A stretch of 64,000 nucleotides of DNA from positions 1,860,001-1,924,000 of the forward strand of contig NZ_CP095071.1 in assembly GCF_022919575.1 (NCBI RefSeq), in the 5' to 3' direction. This DNA is from Gracilibacillus salinarum. Its GTDB lineage: Bacteria > Bacillota > Bacilli > Bacillales > Amphibacillaceae. Positions 11,229 to 49,459 of this stretch are shown here, piece by piece; positions within the stretch are counted from its first letter, which is position 1; each line of letters opens with the position of its first letter. A program made the translations under genes and the position numbers. Under the pieces are notes generated by a model. That model was not told the DNA's origin. It saw nothing but the letters and a program-made list of their open reading frames with translations, and searched no databases.

Positions 11229-11650
11229 GAGAAAATTCTTTCTACCGGACAGTTGATTGCATTTCTTCTCACATTTTGTCCGTTTGAGCTTCTAACGGAC
11301 AATTGACCACTTTCCTTTCTTCATTTTGTCCGTTTGAGCTCTTCTAACGGACAATTGACCACTTCTCTTTCTCCATTTTGTCCGTTTGAGCTCTTCTAAC
11401 GGACAATTGACCGCCTCCCTTTCCTCATTTTGTCCGTTTGAGCTCTTCTAACGGACAATTGACCGCTTTTCTTTCTCCATTTTGTACGTTTGAGCTCTTC
11501 TAACGGACAATTGACCACTTCCCTTTCTTCGTTTTGTCCGTTTGAGCTCTTCTAACGGACAATTGACCACTTCTCTTTCTCCATTTTGTCCGTTTGGGCT
11601 CTTCAATCGGACAATTCCTTTCTTCTCCTCCCCGGTTTTGTCCGTAAAAC
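11229..11650. repeat. tandem array of 52-bp hairpin units
   Basis: About eight head-to-tail units. The GTC of TTGTCC recurs at 11278 (approx.), 11328, 11380, 11432, 11484, 11536, 11588 and 11640, so the first interval is 50 bp and the rest are exactly 52 bp. Each unit contains an inverted repeat, TTGTCCGTT and AACGGACAA, separated by 11 bp that include GAGCTC. The remaining 23 bp form a pyrimidine-rich spacer. The arms are better conserved than the spacers, and the edge units are degenerate. The period is not a multiple of three, so the reverse-strand open frames crossing it are unlikely to be genes. Function unknown. Confidence 0.9.
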
Positions 11651-15213: not shown

Positions 15214-15610
15214 CTACTCCTCCCCCTTCTTCAGATACTCCTCCAACATCCGATCCGCCTCAGCCGCTTTCCTCCTCTTCTCCTCCTCCGTCTCCGTCTT
15301 TTGTTTCACCGGCTGACTCTTCTGCTTCATATACCAATCCGGTACTATATCCCGTTTAGCTGTCGACCAATTTGTCTGATTGGCTGGCTTTCTCTGTCTT
15401 GCCTTTCTTTGTTGCTCCAATGGACTGGCATCCTCTACTGTTTTCACGGCCATCCTAGACCAATTCAACAGCACACTTTCTAAATATTTCACCCCTTTTG
15501 CCTCTGCTTTGGCAGCAAGCTCCATTGCTTTGGATAACAACTCATAACCATACTCTTCATACCACTGAGTTAACAGTTCATAGTTAAATGGTGATTCACT
15601 GATTCCTTTT
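15214..15610 (-). pseudogene. truncated 3' fragment of a RepO/DnaD-like replisome-organizer gene
   Basis: About 130 codons match the C-terminal third of the intact gene at 17486-18529: KGISESPFNYELLTQWY, then AMELAAKAEAKGVKYLESV, then the Lys/Glu-rich tail. DNA similarity is over 90 % by eye. The 5' part is missing; at 15609 the homology stops and a copy of the dispersed intergenic repeat begins. An internal ATG at 15540 leaves a 108-codon open frame, but this lacks the N-terminal DNA-binding domain. It lies in the same orientation as the intact copy, with nagA between them. Confidence 0.85.
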
Positions 15611-17485: not shown

Positions 17486-18529
17486 CTACCGCTCCCCCTT
17501 CAAATACTCCTCCAACATCCGATCCGCCTCAGCCGCTCTCTTCCTCTTCTCCTCCTCCGTCTCCGTCTTTTGTTTCACCGGCTGACTCTTCTGCTTCACA
17601 TACCAATCCGGTACTATATCCCGTTTAGCTGTTGACCCATTTGTCTGATTAGCTGGCCTTCTTTGTCTTGCTTTTCTTTGTTTCTCCAATAGTCTGGCAT
17701 CCTCTACTGTTTTCACGCCCATCTTAGACCAATTCAACAGCACACTTTCTAAATATTTCACTCCTTTTGCCTCTGCTTTGGCAGCAAGCTCCATTGCTTT
17801 GGATAACAACTCATAACCATATTCTCCATACCATTGAGTCAACAGTTCATAATTAAAAGGTGATTCACTGATTCCTTTCTGCAAATTCTCACGGTAAAAT
17901 TTCATCAATTTTTGAAAGTCGACGTCACTACTATTACTATTACATTCTTTTATGTCTTTACTCTTTACTGTCTTTAAACCTGTCTTTAGGGAAGCTGAAT
18001 CCCTTATTACAGCTGACTTTGCGCCTTTAACCGGTAAGTGTTTTACTAACTTGAAAGTAAGTGATTTACTTACCGCTTTTCTTCGTTTCGTCAGTAATTT
18101 ACTTACTTTAACATTTTTGCTACTGCGTGAGGTATTGGCTGGGAGTTTTTGATTCTGCTCTTTCTTTCTGATTAAATTTTTGTGCATCAACTGATTATAC
18201 CCCTCATTTTCCCACTTCTTATTCGGTGTGATTTGCCAATGCCGATAGTTCTTATTAATACAAAACACCATTGTTTGGCGATCCCAATCCAGCACAGCAC
18301 AATCTTGTAAGAAAGTAAGCTCCTTCTTCACATCTTGTTTATACATTCCGATTAACTCGAAGACCGTATAATTCGGTATCACGCAATCCTTCTGTCCCGT
18401 TCCGTACGATAATCGCCAGATCAACAGAATCAGGTTCATCTGCCTCTTGGTAAAATCTCTGCGTAATAGTTCATTCCATAAAACATTCGCAATTCTAATG
18501 TACCCTTTTTCCATTTCTGGATTTGTCAT
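17486..18529 (-). CDS. phage replisome-organizer-like protein (RepO N-terminal plus DnaD-like C-terminal)
   Basis: A 347-residue protein. The N-terminal winged-helix region (about 1-115: YIRIANVLWNELLRRDFTKR, then LILLIWRLSYGTG) matches the phage replication protein O type. A basic linker follows, then a DnaD/DnaB_2-like helical domain (about 215-285) and a charged tail. Phage relatives bind an origin and recruit the helicase. No phage genes lie nearby. GAGGGG stands 7 nt upstream of the ATG, and a conserved leader element lies at 18617-18726. Homologues in the window are the fragment at 15214 and the gene at 47503-48528. What it replicates or regulates here is unknown. Confidence 0.8.
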   Translation of the reverse strand: MTNPEMEKGYIRIANVLWNELLRRDFTKRQMNLILLIWRLSYGTGQKDCVIPNYTVFELIGMYKQDVKKELTFLQDCAVLDWDRQTMVFCINKNYRHWQITPNKKWENEGYNQLMHKNLIRKKEQNQKLPANTSRSSKNVKVSKLLTKRRKAVSKSLTFKLVKHLPVKGAKSAVIRDSASLKTGLKTVKSKDIKECNSNSSDVDFQKLMKFYRENLQKGISESPFNYELLTQWYGEYGYELLSKAMELAAKAEAKGVKYLESVLLNWSKMGVKTVEDARLLEKQRKARQRRPANQTNGSTAKRDIVPDWYVKQKSQPVKQKTETEEEKRKRAAEADRMLEEYLKGER

Positions 18530-18616
18530 TGTTATTCCCCTCTCCTCATTGCATCGGCTTAAAGCAATACACGCGCCTCTGTGCTTTCATGATAACCATG
18601 GAAAGGAGATTATGCA

Positions 18617-18726
18617 TCTACCGATATGTACTTGAACGCTTAACAAAAATAGATTTTCTATTACGAAAAAAGGATTTTCTCTAGAGAAAAAACGATTTTG
18701 TTACACCTTTGATCACATACCGGTAT
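18617..18726 (-). promoter_or_regulatory. conserved leader element, copy 1
   Basis: The outer motifs CTACCGATAT (around 18618-18627) and ACATACCGGTA (18715-18725) bracket a stem-loop whose arms are TAACAAAA (18641-18648) and TTTTGTTA (18696-18703). The CCG and ACATAC motifs start 94 bp apart, exactly as in the copies at 48605-48711 and 49352-49459. It ends about 90 bp upstream of the RepO-like start. It may be a promoter/operator region or a structured leader. Confidence 0.65.
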
Positions 18727-25104: not shown

Positions 25105-25800
25105 TTATTGAACGGTATCGTCTAGTTCCCAGCCTAGCTTCTCATATAATTTCCTGCGTCCTGCTTTATCGCCTGCTAATTCCTGATGCGCATATTTCGC
25201 AACGTCCTTGGCGTATTTACTAGGCACGACCACGACTCCATCGCCATCTGCTACGATCACATCATTCGGGTAAACAGCTACACCGCCAATCGCGACGGGA
25301 ATATCTTTCTCATAATAGCGAATTCTCGTCTGATCCATTCCTTGTGAGATAAACTTAGACCAGACTGGAATCTTCTGCATAATCACTTCGTCCGTATCAC
25401 GAATCCCTCCACCATTAGTTAAGTAGCCGACTACGCCTTTATGAAGGTGATCCAAGGTATTATTAGAACCGAGTATGCCTACATCTGCCCCGGCGATATC
25501 CATGACTATGAAATCTCCAGCTTCGATATCTTGTGCCCACTCATCCGTACAGACCTCACCGTAATACCATTTCGCCCACTTGGTATATTCATCCCCTGTT
25601 ACGTTCGGGACAGGTCCTTCGAATGGTAAATAACGCGCGGTTCTTGCAATACCTACCACTTTTGTCCGGAATAATGGACGGATACTGTGGTCCACCGTGC
25701 CATAACCATGCAGTCCCACCCAGTCCATCCCGTCGCGTACGTCCGTTACACGTAAATCTTTGTACAACTCTAATATTTCTTCTCGGTTAATTTTACTCAT
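25105..25800 (-). CDS. RraA-family protein (aldolase/decarboxylase-like), copy 1
   Basis: A 231-residue protein of the RraA/HMG-aldolase-like fold (older name dimethylmenaquinone-methyltransferase-like). GVVGYLTNGGGIRDTDEV contains the family's G-x-RD substrate/metal motif, and DGVVVVPS is the usual C-terminal strand. Family members cleave or decarboxylate 4-hydroxy-2-oxo acids, and others bind RNase E, which has no bearing on a catabolic cluster. It differs from the copy at 31529-32224 at only six residues, while many third codon positions differ. Upstream lie paired palindromes at 25886-25915. Confidence 0.85.
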   Translation of the reverse strand: MSKINREEILELYKDLRVTDVRDGMDWVGLHGYGTVDHSIRPLFRTKVVGIARTARYLPFEGPVPNVTGDEYTKWAKWYYGEVCTDEWAQDIEAGDFIVMDIAGADVGILGSNNTLDHLHKGVVGYLTNGGGIRDTDEVIMQKIPVWSKFISQGMDQTRIRYYEKDIPVAIGGVAVYPNDVIVADGDGVVVVPSKYAKDVAKYAHQELAGDKAGRRKLYEKLGWELDDTVQ

Positions 25801-25885
25801 CTGCTTAATCGCTCCTTTTTTTATCGATAATATCGTTTTCCAAAACAGCTATTTCTAACAAAACAGGTGGGCTGCCTTTCGTGTC

Positions 25886-31528: not shown

Positions 31529-32224
31529 TTACTGTACGGTATCGTCTAATTCCCAACCTAATTTCTCATATAATTTCTTGCGTCCTGCTTTATCACCTGC
31601 TAATTCCTGATGCGCATACTTCGCTACGTCCTTAGCATATTTACTTGGCACAACGACGACACCATCACCATCTGCTACGATCACATCATTCGGATAAACA
31701 GCTACACCACCAATGGCGACAGGAATATCTTTCTCATAGTAGCGAATTCTCGTCTGGTCCATTCCTTGTGAGACAAACTTAGACCAGACTGGGATCTGTT
31801 GCATGATCACTTCATCTGTATCCCGAATCCCTCCACCGTTAGTTAAATAGCCGACTACTCCTTTATGGAGATGGTCCAACGTATTATTAGAACCAAGTAT
31901 CCCAACATCTGCCCCTGCGATATCCATAACAATGAAATCCCCTGCTTCAATGTCATGTGCCCATTCATCCGTACAAACCTCACCGTAATACCATTTCGCC
32001 CACTTCGTATACGCATCACCTGTTACATTGGGAACAGGTCCTTCAAATGGTAAATAACGCGCGGTTCTCGCAATGCCAACCACTTTTGTCCGGAATAACG
32101 GACGGATACTATGATCCACTGTCCCATAACCGTGCAGTCCTACCCAGTCCATCCCGTCACGTACATCCGTTACACGTAAATCTTTGTACAATTCCAATAT
32201 TTCTTCTCGGTTAAATTTACTCAT
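31529..32224 (-). CDS. RraA-family protein (aldolase/decarboxylase-like), copy 2
   Basis: A 231-residue near-twin of the protein at 25105-25800: 225 of 231 residues are identical by eye, with changes such as I4F, E to A in VTGDxY and R to K near the end. The G-x-RD motif GGGIRDTDEV is intact. Silent differences are spread along the gene, so both copies have been kept under protein-level selection rather than arising by a very recent duplication. It is first in its gene run, with two GAAATCGATT-type palindromes upstream. Confidence 0.85.
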   Translation of the reverse strand: MSKFNREEILELYKDLRVTDVRDGMDWVGLHGYGTVDHSIRPLFRTKVVGIARTARYLPFEGPVPNVTGDAYTKWAKWYYGEVCTDEWAHDIEAGDFIVMDIAGADVGILGSNNTLDHLHKGVVGYLTNGGGIRDTDEVIMQQIPVWSKFVSQGMDQTRIRYYEKDIPVAIGGVAVYPNDVIVADGDGVVVVPSKYAKDVAKYAHQELAGDKAGRKKLYEKLGWELDDTVQ

Positions 32225-32254
32225 TTGCTTATCGCTCCCTTTTTTGTAATTGAC

Positions 32255-46168: not shown

Positions 46169-46453
46169 ATGGCCAAAAGAGAAAGAAGAACATTTTCAAA
46201 TGAGTTTAAAGAACAAATCGTCCAGTTGCACCTTTCAGGTAAACCTAGAAATGAGATTATCAAAGAATACGAGTTGACACCTTCTGCCTTTGATAAGTGG
46301 GTTAGTCAACATAAAACAACTGGATCCTTTGAAGAGAAAGACAACAGAACTCCGGAACAGGAGGAGTTAATCAGACTTCGTAAAGAAAATCAAAGACTCG
46401 CAATGGAAAATGATATTTTAAAGCAAGCCGCGCTGATTATGGGACGAAAGTAG
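46169..46453 (+). CDS. IS3-family transposase OrfA
   Basis: A 94-residue DNA-binding subunit. The helix-turn-helix (FSNEFKEQIVQLHLSGKPRN, then EYELTPSAFDKWVSQH) is followed by a leucine-zipper-like coiled coil (LIRLRKENQRLAMENDILKQAA). It binds the element ends and, by frameshifting into orfB, becomes the N-terminus of the full transposase. Confidence 0.95.
   Translation: MAKRERRTFSNEFKEQIVQLHLSGKPRNEIIKEYELTPSAFDKWVSQHKTTGSFEEKDNRTPEQEELIRLRKENQRLAMENDILKQAALIMGRK
46417..46423 (+). other. programmed -1 frameshift site of the IS
   Basis: T TTA AAG in the orfA frame is a classical slippery heptamer. The -1 frame is open from just before this point through orfB, so slippage here would give the OrfAB fusion transposase. 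Confidence 0.75.
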
Positions 46454-46455
46454 AT

Positions 46456-47304
46456 GTGATCCGTAATAACAGTCATAAATACTCTGTATCAGCAATGTGC
46501 GCCGTCCTACAACTTCCAAGAAGTACGTACTACTATGAAGCCAAAATCCGTGATGACCAAGAGAAAGAAGAATTAACAGAACTGATTATAGATATATTTA
46601 AAAAGAACCGCAGTGTCTATGGTCAGCGTAAGATAAAAAAGGAGCTATATAAGAAAGGCTGGCAAGTTTCACGTCGCCGTATTGGGCAAATAATGAAAGA
46701 ACAAGGACTTGTCTCCAAATACACAATTGCTCAATTTAAACCAACGAAAACTACTGTAAATGAGTCTGAAATTGGAAACACCTTGAATCGAGAATTTGAT
46801 CAAGATGAAGAATTAAAGGTCATTGTGAGTGATTTAACATACGTTCGTGTACAACAAAAATGGCACTATATTTGTGTATTAGTAGATTTATATAATCGGG
46901 AAATCATTGGACACAGTGCTGGTCCTCATAAGGACGCAGCTTTAGTTCAACGTGCCTTTTCGACAGTGAAGTACAATCTAAATCGTCTCGAACTTTTCCA
47001 TACAGACCGAGGAAGTGAGTTTAAAAATAAACTTATTGATGAAGCGCTGGAGACTTTTGAGATTAAAAAATCCTTAAGTAATAAAGGTACACCGTATGAC
47101 AATGCAGTGGCTGAAGCAACATTCAAAACGATTAAAACAGAATTCGTAAGTGGTATGGTCTTTTCAAGTCAACGAGAGCTTGATCTGGAGCTCTTTGATT
47201 ACGTAAATTGGTTTAATAATATTCGAATTCATGGATCCTTAGACTATTTAACACCTAAGGAATATAAGAATAAGCATCAGGCAGGTATGTGCGCTATTTC
47301 GTAG
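46456..47304 (+). CDS. IS3-family transposase OrfB (DDE integrase domain)
   Basis: A 282-residue frame. It has an HTH_21-like region (KNRSVYGQRKIKKELYKKG) followed by a retroviral-type integrase core. The DDE residues lie in VSDLTYV (Asp), FHTDRGSEF (Asp) and DNAVAEATFKTIKTE (Glu). The GTG at 46456 begins after the orfA stop and lies in the -1 frame. The element looks intact and may still be mobile. Confidence 0.95.
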   Translation: MIRNNSHKYSVSAMCAVLQLPRSTYYYEAKIRDDQEKEELTELIIDIFKKNRSVYGQRKIKKELYKKGWQVSRRRIGQIMKEQGLVSKYTIAQFKPTKTTVNESEIGNTLNREFDQDEELKVIVSDLTYVRVQQKWHYICVLVDLYNREIIGHSAGPHKDAALVQRAFSTVKYNLNRLELFHTDRGSEFKNKLIDEALETFEIKKSLSNKGTPYDNAVAEATFKTIKTEFVSGMVFSSQRELDLELFDYVNWFNNIRIHGSLDYLTPKEYKNKHQAGMCAIS

Positions 47305-47502: not shown

Positions 47503-48528
47503 TCAGTTTAGTGTTGACATACCAAACATCCGATCGACCTCAGCCGCTCTCCTATCCTTCTCCTCTTCTGTCATACTATCTTCTTTTACCGGCTCACTCT
47601 TCTGTTTCACATACCAATCCGGTACAATATCCCGCTTAGCATCAGCACGATTCTTCTGGTAGGACGGCTTACGTTGACTTACGTTTCTTTGCTTCTGCAT
47701 AACCGTTACATCCGCTGCTGTTTTCACACCCATATTTGCCCAGTTCAACAGCACGCTTTCTAGATATTTCACTCCTTTTGCTTCGGCCCTGGTAGCATTT
47801 CTCATTGCTTCCATTACCAGTTCATGGCCATACTCCTCATACCATTGGGTCAGTAATTCATAGTTATAAGGCGAATCGGTTAATCCTATTTGTAAATTTT
47901 CACGATAAAATTGCATTAATTCGCGAAAGCGCGGGTCTCTATAACTATTACATTCTTTTCTATCTTTCCTCCCTTCTGTCTTTCCCTCTGTCTTTCGGGA
48001 AGCTGGATCCCTTATCACCATTGACTTAACGCTATTTTCTGGTACGTATTTTACTAACTTGGAGGTAAGTGATTTACTTACCGTTTTACCCGGTTTCGTC
48101 AGTACATCACTGACCTGCTTCCTTTCTGCAGTGACAGGTTGTGCATCTGAAGTGTTCGCTTTCTTACGATGTACATTCTTTTTCAGAAGCTGTTTAAAAC
48201 GCTCATTGTCCCACTTCTTATTCGGTGTAATTTGCCAGAGGTGATAGTTTTTATTTATCCAGAACACCATCGTTTGCGAATCCCAATAAAGCACGGCACA
48301 ATCACGTAGGAAGGTAAGCTCCTTCTTCACGTCCTGTTTATACATGCCTGCTAATTCAAAATTGGTAAAGCTCGGAATCAAGCAATCACTCTGTCCGGTT
48401 CCGTACGATAACCGCCAGATGAACAGAATCAGATTCGTCTGCCTCTTTGAGAAAGCGCGTCGTAATACCTCATTCCATAAATCATTTGCTATTCTTATGT
48501 ACCCATCCTCCACTTGTGGATTTGCCAT
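47503..48528 (-). CDS. phage replisome-organizer-like protein, C-terminus altered by IS insertion
   Basis: About 341 residues, homologous along its whole length to the protein at 17486-18529. The N-terminal RepO-type winged helix (YIRIANDLWNEVLRRAFSKR, LSYGTGQSDCLIP) is followed by a basic linker and a DnaD-like domain (SPYNYELLTQWYEEYGHEL). The last normal residues are DRM, after which FGMSTLN comes from the IS right end. The true tail lies beyond the IS at 46060-46089. Only about eight residues are exchanged, so it may still work. I start it at ATG 48528, aligned with the homologue and well spaced from GAGAGGGG. Confidence 0.8.
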   Translation of the reverse strand: MANPQVEDGYIRIANDLWNEVLRRAFSKRQTNLILFIWRLSYGTGQSDCLIPSFTNFELAGMYKQDVKKELTFLRDCAVLYWDSQTMVFWINKNYHLWQITPNKKWDNERFKQLLKKNVHRKKANTSDAQPVTAERKQVSDVLTKPGKTVSKSLTSKLVKYVPENSVKSMVIRDPASRKTEGKTEGRKDRKECNSYRDPRFRELMQFYRENLQIGLTDSPYNYELLTQWYEEYGHELVMEAMRNATRAEAKGVKYLESVLLNWANMGVKTAADVTVMQKQRNVSQRKPSYQKNRADAKRDIVPDWYVKQKSEPVKEDSMTEEEKDRRAAEVDRMFGMSTLN

Positions 48529-48604
48529 TTCCATTCCCCTCTCTTCATTTACTTAAAGTATATAAGCTTGCTTCCATAATAGCGGAAAACAGAAAATTTA
48601 GCAT

Positions 48605-48711
48605 ATGCCGATATTTGTCTGGGAATAGTTGAAAAAGCGATTTTCTAACGAGAAAATAAGATTTTTCATTAAGAAAATCGCTTTTTCACCCTCGCTGGCT
48701 AACATACGGTA
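48605..48711 (-). promoter_or_regulatory. conserved leader element, copy 2
   Basis: The outer motifs ATGCCGATAT (around 48605-48614) and ACATACGGTA (48702-48711) bracket a perfect 16-bp stem (48631-48646 with 48672-48687, 25-nt loop). The CCG-to-ACATAC distance is 94 bp, as in copies 1 and 3. It lies about 77 bp upstream of the RepO-like start codon. Confidence 0.65.
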
Positions 48712-48719
48712 CAAATTTT

Positions 48720-48753
48720 AAAAAATGTAGCCCTTGCCTGTTCAACAAGGGCT
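48720..48753 (-). terminator. terminator of the small sigma-factor gene
   Basis: Reverse-strand AGCCCTTG (48753-48746) pairs with CAAGGGCT (48736-48729) and is followed, after three bases, by TTTTTT (48725-48720). It lies 35 bp past the sigma gene stop codon and directly upstream of leader copy 2. Confidence 0.7.
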
Positions 48754-48787
48754 TTCCTATAGTTACCTTTGAAACTCAGAAAATTTT

Positions 48788-49276
48788 TTACCCCTCCATC
48801 ACCTTCCGAATCTTCTGTTTCGCCATTCTCCCCCAGTTCTTCACAGCCACCTCTGTCGTATCGTGACGTGTTGCGATGGATTTCACAGATTGATCCTCTA
48901 TGATAAATTCAATTAGCCAGCACCATTGCTTCTCCGATAATTCCTGCTTGAGCGTGTTCATCAGGTAACTATCGAAAGGATAATTATCCTCTGCCCATAA
49001 GTCGTCTTCCCTCACCTGCTCCAGCCAGTCTTGCTGCTTCTTCTGATCACGGTTGTGCTTCTGCATCATATTAAGAAAACGTCTGGATATCGAACTGTAA
49101 ATAAACGTGGATAATTTCGATTTAGAAGGATCGTGCTGCTGATAAGCATGCCAGACAGCTATTAGCCCTTCCTGGTAGAATTCGCCCTCTGCATCCCGTA
49201 TCTGATAACGATGAATAAAATGGTGAATCATGCGCTCATGTTCTGCCAACACTTCTTGAAATTCCATCTTTCTCAT
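48788..49276 (-). CDS. small sigma-70-family RNA polymerase sigma factor
   Basis: A 162-residue sigma-like protein. Region 2 lies in the first half (RYQIRDAEGEFYQEGLIAVW; SKLSTFIYSSISRRFLNMM) and a region-4-like helix-turn-helix in the second (QSVKSIATRHDTTEVAVKNW). It resembles the short competence- or phage-type sigma factors (ComX/SigH-like) more than ordinary ECF factors. No anti-sigma gene is next to it. It shares its upstream element (49352-49459) with the two RepO-like genes, so it may control them or be controlled with them. The start could be the ATG at 49276 or 49267. Confidence 0.85.
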   Translation of the reverse strand: MRKMEFQEVLAEHERMIHHFIHRYQIRDAEGEFYQEGLIAVWHAYQQHDPSKSKLSTFIYSSISRRFLNMMQKHNRDQKKQQDWLEQVREDDLWAEDNYPFDSYLMNTLKQELSEKQWCWLIEFIIEDQSVKSIATRHDTTEVAVKNWGRMAKQKIRKVMEG

Positions 49277-49288
49277 GCACCTGCTAGG

Positions 49289-49304
49289 TGATAAGCACTT
49301 ATCA
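49289..49304. promoter_or_regulatory. palindrome at the sigma gene 5' end
   Basis: TGATAAG-CA-CTTATCA is a 7-2-7 inverted repeat 13 bp upstream of the sigma start codon, overlapping the place where the ribosome binds. It could be an operator or an mRNA hairpin limiting translation. Confidence 0.45.
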
Positions 49305-49351
49305 AGTATTCCGCGGTGTGTCTATCATAGCGGGAATGCGGGAGCAAGTCA

Positions 49352-49459
49352 TATGCCGTTATTTCGTTCCAGACCGGTTAAAAACGCTAAACCTAATGGA
49401 GTATAAAGCATTTCGTTAGCGAAAAAGGGTTTTTTGGCACGGTACGGGTACATACCGTC
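49352..49459 (-). promoter_or_regulatory. conserved leader element, copy 3
   Basis: The outer motifs ATGCCGTTAT (around 49353-49362) and ACATACCGTC (49450-49459) are again 94 bp apart (CCG to ACATAC), with a short stem CGCTAA/TTAGCG (49385-49390 with 49416-49421) between. It lies 76 bp upstream of the sigma gene. Similarity to copies 1 and 2 extends over the motif flanks (CATATGCCG, GTTAAAAACGC) but not through the loop. Confidence 0.6.

Follow-up and report, generated by a model that had tools for sequence, protein, structure and literature searches.

A predicted ComK-type regulon in Gracilibacillus salinarum, with apparently domesticated phage replicators among its members

Competence regulons are known for genes of DNA uptake and recombination. 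The described systems closest to the locus considered here come from Bacillus, Staphylococcus aureus and phage lambda. In the available passages of PMC3536758, the ComK K-box of Bacillus consists of two or more AAAA-N5-TTTT boxes lying 8 bp apart just upstream of a promoter, and the same arrangement is found in the window, that is, the whole 64-kb stretch of Gracilibacillus salinarum DNA that was analysed. Unlike in Bacillus, the arrays here are flanked by two outer words and precede phage-type replication genes and, in degenerate form, a sigma gene, whereas comGA of this genome is without a K-box. Competence in S. aureus is controlled, according to the accessible parts of two papers, by the small sigma factor SigH together with the paralogues ComK1 and ComK2 (PMC10182052, PMC3486894), and the 5′ leader of sigH carries an inverted repeat at the ribosome site (PMC3486894). 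Gracilibacillus likewise combines a small, putatively competence-type sigma factor with two ComK paralogues, and its sigma leader appears to have a similar inverted repeat; the same passages name no K-box before sigH, and the sigma protein here differs from SigH in matching PRK06759 only below the cut-off. In lambda, as excerpts of PMC3985674 describe it, the initiator protein attaches to iterons, and initiation is helped by transcription across the origin. The RepO genes of the window resemble lambda-O-type replicators in their Phage_rep_O initiator, iterons and A-rich block, but they are chromosomal, stand behind a K-box promoter and, in Gracilibacillus, have no adjacent helicase loader or helicase.

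We consider it fairly probable, from sequence comparison, that activator arrays of the ComK type, each joined to a promoter, turn on both a sigma gene of the competence (SigH/ComX-like) kind and the domesticated RepO-DnaD initiators. Together these genes would form a ComK-type regulon whose members apparently include phage replicators that have been domesticated. No description of a chromosomal phage-type initiator driven by ComK boxes was found in the open literature, most subscription papers lying outside the search.

Architecture of the shared control region

On the minus strand, three sites of the window (Table 1) carry GTATGT...ATAWCGG over a length of exactly 100 bp, with 94 bp from CCG to ACATAC, and the identical spacing claimed in the preliminary description is thus borne out by the positions. 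The distance to the start codons, put there at 76-90 bp, had to be widened, the near ends of elements 1, 2 and 3 lying 92, 74 and 80 bp away. A loose form of the pattern, GTATGTN{80,110}ATAWCGG, has 10 matches in the 4.80-Mb genome against 10 for the reversed control, and among the 10 genome matches only the three window elements have the 100-bp length. The third chromosomal RepO gene of this genome (2883585-2884628) is preceded by the same interior with degenerate end words. An Rfam scan of the window gave no match at gathering thresholds.

Table 1. Coordinates of the features discussed, in window positions
Feature	Positions	Strand	Remarks
Element 1	18621..18720	-	upstream of RepO1
Element 2	48608..48707	-	upstream of RepO2
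Element 3	49356..49455	-	upstream of sigma gene
Putative RepO1 promoter	18589..18617	-	-35 ATGCAT 18612-18617, 17 bp, -10 TATCAT 18589-18594
Putative RepO2 promoter	48576..48604	-	-35 ATGCTA 48599-48604, 17 bp, -10 TATTAT 48576-48581
Putative sigma-gene promoter	49324..49352	-	-35 ATGACT 49347-49352, 17 bp, -10 TATGAT 49324-49329
Three AT-boxes, RepO1	18645..18699	-	8-bp spacers; two overlapping perfect K-box pairs
Three AT-boxes, RepO2	48632..48686	-	8-bp spacers; two overlapping perfect K-box pairs
Degenerate K-box pair, sigma gene	49402..49435	-	13/16, same register as RepO arrays
RepO1 gene, 347 aa	17486..18529	-	Phage_rep_O and DnaD-type domain
RepO2 gene, 343 aa	47503..48534	-	Phage_rep_O and DnaD-type domain
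Small sigma-70 family gene, 162 aa	48788..49276	-	region 2; weak region 4
Three palindromic iterons in RepO1	18034..18106	-	
A-rich block beside RepO1 iterons	17937..17989	-	synonymous sites constrained
Three palindromic iterons in RepO2	48042..48114	-	
A-rich block beside RepO2 iterons	47946..47998	-	

A central stem-loop had been attributed to all three copies. It holds for the RepO copies (z -5.3 to -6.0, four sequences) and fails for the sigma copies (z -0.35 and -1.33); at the RepO genes it corresponds to an array of AAAA-N5-TTTT boxes set 8 bp apart, which before RepO2 reads AAAAAGCGATTTT, 8 bp, AAAATCTTATTTT, 8 bp, AAAATCGCTTTTT. The interior has a period of about 21 bp, with off-register best offsets mostly at 21 and 42-43, and the array is nearly symmetric about its middle box, which accounts for the fixed 94 bp and the inverted look of the ends.

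At all three window genes the 3′ word of the element abuts a -35/-10 pair with a 17-bp spacer, an arrangement that accounts for how little the distance to the start codons varies and that places the element upstream of transcription; we infer that it forms the upstream half of a promoter. Upstream regions of Gracilibacillus sigma and RepO genes align without gaps over about 150 bp. Summed over columns, the information in 26 such regions amounts to 72.7 bits, whereas 300 row-rotated controls give 14.2 +/- 0.9 with a maximum of 17.4; the contrast does not translate into a probability, because the anchor was chosen by eye and related sequences were compared. The sigma region sig_L035, near-identical to L033, was left out of this analysis and of those of sigma K-boxes and box spacing, while the RepO regions L047, L053 and L064 are unanchored in the gapless alignment yet counted in K-box scoring. 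Lack of conservation upstream of orthologues had been named earlier as grounds for abandoning the element; the comparison was run and the region is conserved. The small regulon proposed at the outset is likely, because the genes share a control region of fixed geometry.

In the 4.8-Mb genome a perfect K-box pair is found at 7 sites, and the three RepO promoters account for five of them; when one mismatch is tolerated, the pattern is found at 12 places per strand genome-wide against 7 for the reversed control. By K-box score, 9 of 11 chromosomal RepO upstream regions reach at least 14/16 and 6 are perfect. For comparison, 180 upstream regions were scored from ORFs of 150 aa or more. Five of them reach 14, three being RepO regions; of the 177 others, 2 thus reach this score and none attains 15. 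Prophage RepO genes score 9-11/16 (2 + 5 rows, L065 and L219 being shown with identical sequence). The 11 scored regions include those of L063 and L053, both broken; loci L051, L052, L054, L066, L181 and L182, which are broken, truncated or split, were left out. Exact spacing within boxes peaks at N5 (24 matches, spread over 11 of the 26 regions; null 1.4 +/- 1.2) and between boxes at TTTT-N8-AAAA (16 matches in 12 of 26, null 1.2 +/- 1.1); with the two closest genomes excluded (19 regions), the excess shrinks to 6 N5 matches against 1.6 +/- 1.4 and 7 N8 matches against 1.0 +/- 1.2.

The sigma gene and its comK and XRE neighbours

The sigma protein carries sigma-70 region 2 (2.3e-10), with region 4 below the cut-off, and its gene has matches in 16 of the 17 genomes of the genus. 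Against the nearest NCBIfam model, PRK06759, it reaches 75.7 bits where the cut-off is 133, and for this reason it is not filed as a SigH/ComX-like member. By K-box score the sigma upstream regions do not stand out (2 of 18 at 13 or more), and their boxes are degenerate, matching mainly in register. The sigma gene is included in the regulon because of the register common with the RepO arrays and a change shared in G. ureilyticus (G016), where both sigma and RepO arrays have CTCGGAGTTTT or CTCCGAGTTTT-like words replacing GCGATTTTC. This change implies that the specificity of the binder has shifted there, a shift that ComK need not explain. Among sigma promoters the best-kept word is TTTTC-N6/7-GAAAATC.

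Several observations concern the sigma leader itself. At window positions 49290-49317 (minus strand), ACCGCGGAATAC precedes a short hairpin whose loop is GYGC-like. The arms of this hairpin vary yet still pair across 27 sequences (18 Gracilibacillus and 9 other loci), with a mean stem score of 5.1 against 3.8 for shuffled sequences and few significant singly. The leader motif ACCGCGGAA is exact in 22 of 34 sigma loci and missing in 12. As a regulon motif, TACCGCGGAATA was tried and rejected: it has 13 matches in the 17 genomes, 11 of them at sigma loci by coordinates, and the two off sigma loci (G008, G014) are T-box-like leaders, the gene after which is presumably alanyl-tRNA-synthetase-like.

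Upstream of comGA, AGGAWT is followed 9-18 bp on by CGAAT in 15 of 17 Gracilibacillus regions (L183-L199), a probable SigH-type promoter instead of a K-box. Such a box would fit the sigma factor driving com genes, and sporulation SigH could read it too. A genome scan for the pattern gave 12 matches against 6 for the control; comGA is included, none lies at a RepO promoter, and none of the others was recognised as a competence gene. K-boxes with up to three mismatches were not found upstream of comGA, comK1 or comK2 in this genome, and together with the SigH-type box at comGA this implies that ComK targets here would differ from the known ones of B. subtilis.

The activator gene comK (PF06338) is present in all 17 genomes, with more than one match in 14, some of them fragments; comK2 is used here, by analogy, for a divergent comK copy that usually follows a small XRE gene. 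An XRE gene precedes comK2 in 12 of 14 comK2-type loci among L122-L151, and also in the window's own genome, where the pair begins just beyond the window end, about 15 kb from the sigma gene. XRE-comK2 pairs stand divergent to the sigma gene in three genomes (G007, G010, G012) and to RepO in one (G009), and a comK2 without a detected XRE gene is divergent to sigma in G015. Within C1:4276027-4316584 of G012 (L170, L173), two sigma genes 40 kb apart each have their own XRE-comK2 pair, one divergent and one convergent, an arrangement that speaks for turnover of the module.

Of the 35 stretches compared, 8 encode a ComK protein close to sigma, three of them from Gracilibacillus and five from four other genera (Salirhabdus, Natronobacillus, Pontibacillus and two from Salinibacillus). 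The order in Salirhabdus (L101) is a DnaD-like gene, a phage-type helicase loader (phrog_2289, 1.7e-16), a DnaB helicase, sigma, XRE and ComK; the replication genes thus stand directly upstream of the other three (L101:3389-7492), with no phage neighbours among the listed ORFs. No K-box with up to three mismatches was found at this DnaD gene, and no direct repeats there. In Salinibacillus (L103) a broken DnaD-like gene follows ComK, and L101 and L103 are the two of 19 non-Gracilibacillus sigma loci with a RepO/DnaD match in the compared stretch.

Chromosomal RepO genes and their iterons

The Phage_rep_O domain is found in both window RepO proteins at 1.7e-23 and 2.6e-22. This genome has three RepO loci, one of them 57 kb from dnaA, and sigma and RepO2 are adjacent both in the window and in G002; the earlier view of the RepO genes as chromosomal paralogues linked to a sigma gene is supported. 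A protein search, which needs shared 5-residue words, returned 29 relatives at E 0.001, and relatives occur in Geobacillus phage GBK2 and IMG/VR proviruses, with 36-51% identity to phage copies. In a midpoint-rooted tree, nine chromosomal copies and eight database proteins (genome context being seen for part of the latter) form one clade with support 0.98 beside prophage copies of the same genus. Judged from this tree, the chromosomal RepO genes are one phage-derived clade. They are also under purifying selection to judge by dN/dS, which was computable for 21 of 36 pairs, many of them near saturation, and ranges there from 0.12 to 0.28; RepO2 and G002, the pair that has diverged least, give 0.28. 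At 1e-30, 6 of 17 genomes show no RepO match and G003 matches in the C-terminal part only, while several copies at other loci are broken. Neither a helicase loader nor a helicase is among the listed ORFs around RepO1 and RepO2; they are present at the Salirhabdus DnaD gene only.

The 3′ part of RepO1 is repeated in the same orientation (window 15214-15609 and 17486-17878, 93% over 396 bp) across an amidohydrolase gene, as after duplication or single-crossover insertion, and an IS3-type transposase pair (window 46169-47304, integrase core in the second ORF) ends about 200 bp past the 3′ end of RepO2. Elsewhere in the window there are a tandem-like repeat region (11240-11645) and a 718-bp duplication with 89% identity (25105-25822 and 31529-32245).

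Three palindromic 17-bp iterons are called in all nine chromosomal RepO genes, the third overlapping the second in G016. Their steps are 33 and 23 bp in six copies, the same as in phage relatives, and 33 and 33 bp in two. Prophage RepO genes hold arrays of 5-7 iterons in 5 of 6 cases, with none in L220, and the chromosomal iterons are fewer and less perfect than the phage ones. The iteron arms change together (GTTAGT/ACTAAC, GTAAGT/ACTTAC or GTTCGT/ACGAAC), and shuffling synonymous codons yields p 0.006-0.038 for the individual chromosomal genes, the pattern having been chosen with the sequences in view. In eight diverged chromosomal genes, with G002 and the phage gene left out, the same codon recurs in 0.81 of comparisons for the iteron block, where 0.40 would be expected from these amino acids in other parts of the gene, and in 0.92 for the A-rich block, where the corresponding expectation is 0.50; resampling reached neither value in 20,000 trials, and windows outside are at expectation. 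The block borders were set after the iteron calls, and unselected 23-codon windows give the same peak. This high same-codon use shows strong DNA-level constraint on about 200 bp inside the RepO gene. In the broken RepO gene L063 the origin-like block is not specially retained, all parts of the gene lying at 0.82-0.87. The origin-like structure suspected in the preliminary description is absent from the 100-bp element, and an origin-like sequence exists inside the RepO reading frame.

Competing readings and biological meaning

The array may instead be bound by another regulator, for example the XRE protein encoded with comK2, with RepO and sigma repressed and the sites forming a lambda-like operator row, TTTTC-N6-GAAAA about every 21 bp. 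The frequent position of XRE genes before comK2, the good preservation of the TTTTC-N6/7-GAAAATC word in sigma promoters and the joint change of the word in G016 sigma and RepO fit such a binder, but isolated AAAA-N5-TTTT boxes occur without a TTTTC partner (L028, L031, L034). The similarity of XRE operators to the outer words, moreover, is 7.08 within the same genome and 7.24 with other genomes, so that the XRE operator as binder of the outer words finds no support in this test, which covered those words only. We regard control by the XRE protein or another such regulator as unlikely. A regulon read by the sigma factor itself, as first suggested, would agree with the shared control region and with sigma and RepO2 standing side by side, but it is very improbable: the sigma type expected from comGA, which this sigma factor may read, uses AGGAWT...CGAAT, a box present in 0 of 11 RepO upstream regions against 15 of 17 for comGA, and the RepO promoters have ComK-type boxes with a -35/-10 pair.

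Hardly credible is an origin or RNA-leader structure of the RepO genes. Such a structure would draw on the strong fold at the RepO copies, but the AT-boxes are self-complementary and would yield a hairpin from that alone, the sigma copies do not fold, and prophage RepO genes are without the element and have their iterons inside the gene. The RNA leader offered as an option in the preliminary description is unsupported, because the consensus fold of 7 sequences is negligible (-0.25 kcal/mol) and the inferred promoter comes downstream of the element.

Under the preferred reading of a ComK-type array, ComK or ComK2 would bind the helically phased AT-boxes just upstream of the -35/-10 pair and thereby turn on the RepO-DnaD genes and, through degenerate boxes, the sigma gene. 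The sigma factor may in turn act on uptake genes, comG for example, RepO may initiate replication from the iterons within its own gene, and transcription from the ComK-type promoter would pass through the iteron and A-rich block. It is tempting, if doubtful, to extend this to a domesticated replicator, in which ComK fires RepO in competent cells, RepO binds the iterons in its own genes and extra replication starts there; alternatively, RepO may act in replication control or belong to a selfish element that fires in competent cells.

If the ComK-type reading is true, DNA uptake would be tied to programmed replication initiation through a chromosomal phage-type initiator placed behind the best ComK boxes of the genome, and a new route of domesticating phage replication genes would be added. 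Extra replication at the RepO loci would amplify local DNA or help to convert or establish incoming DNA. The combination of a DnaD-like gene, loader, helicase, sigma, XRE and comK in Salirhabdus would then be another version of this coupling of competence to replication initiation.
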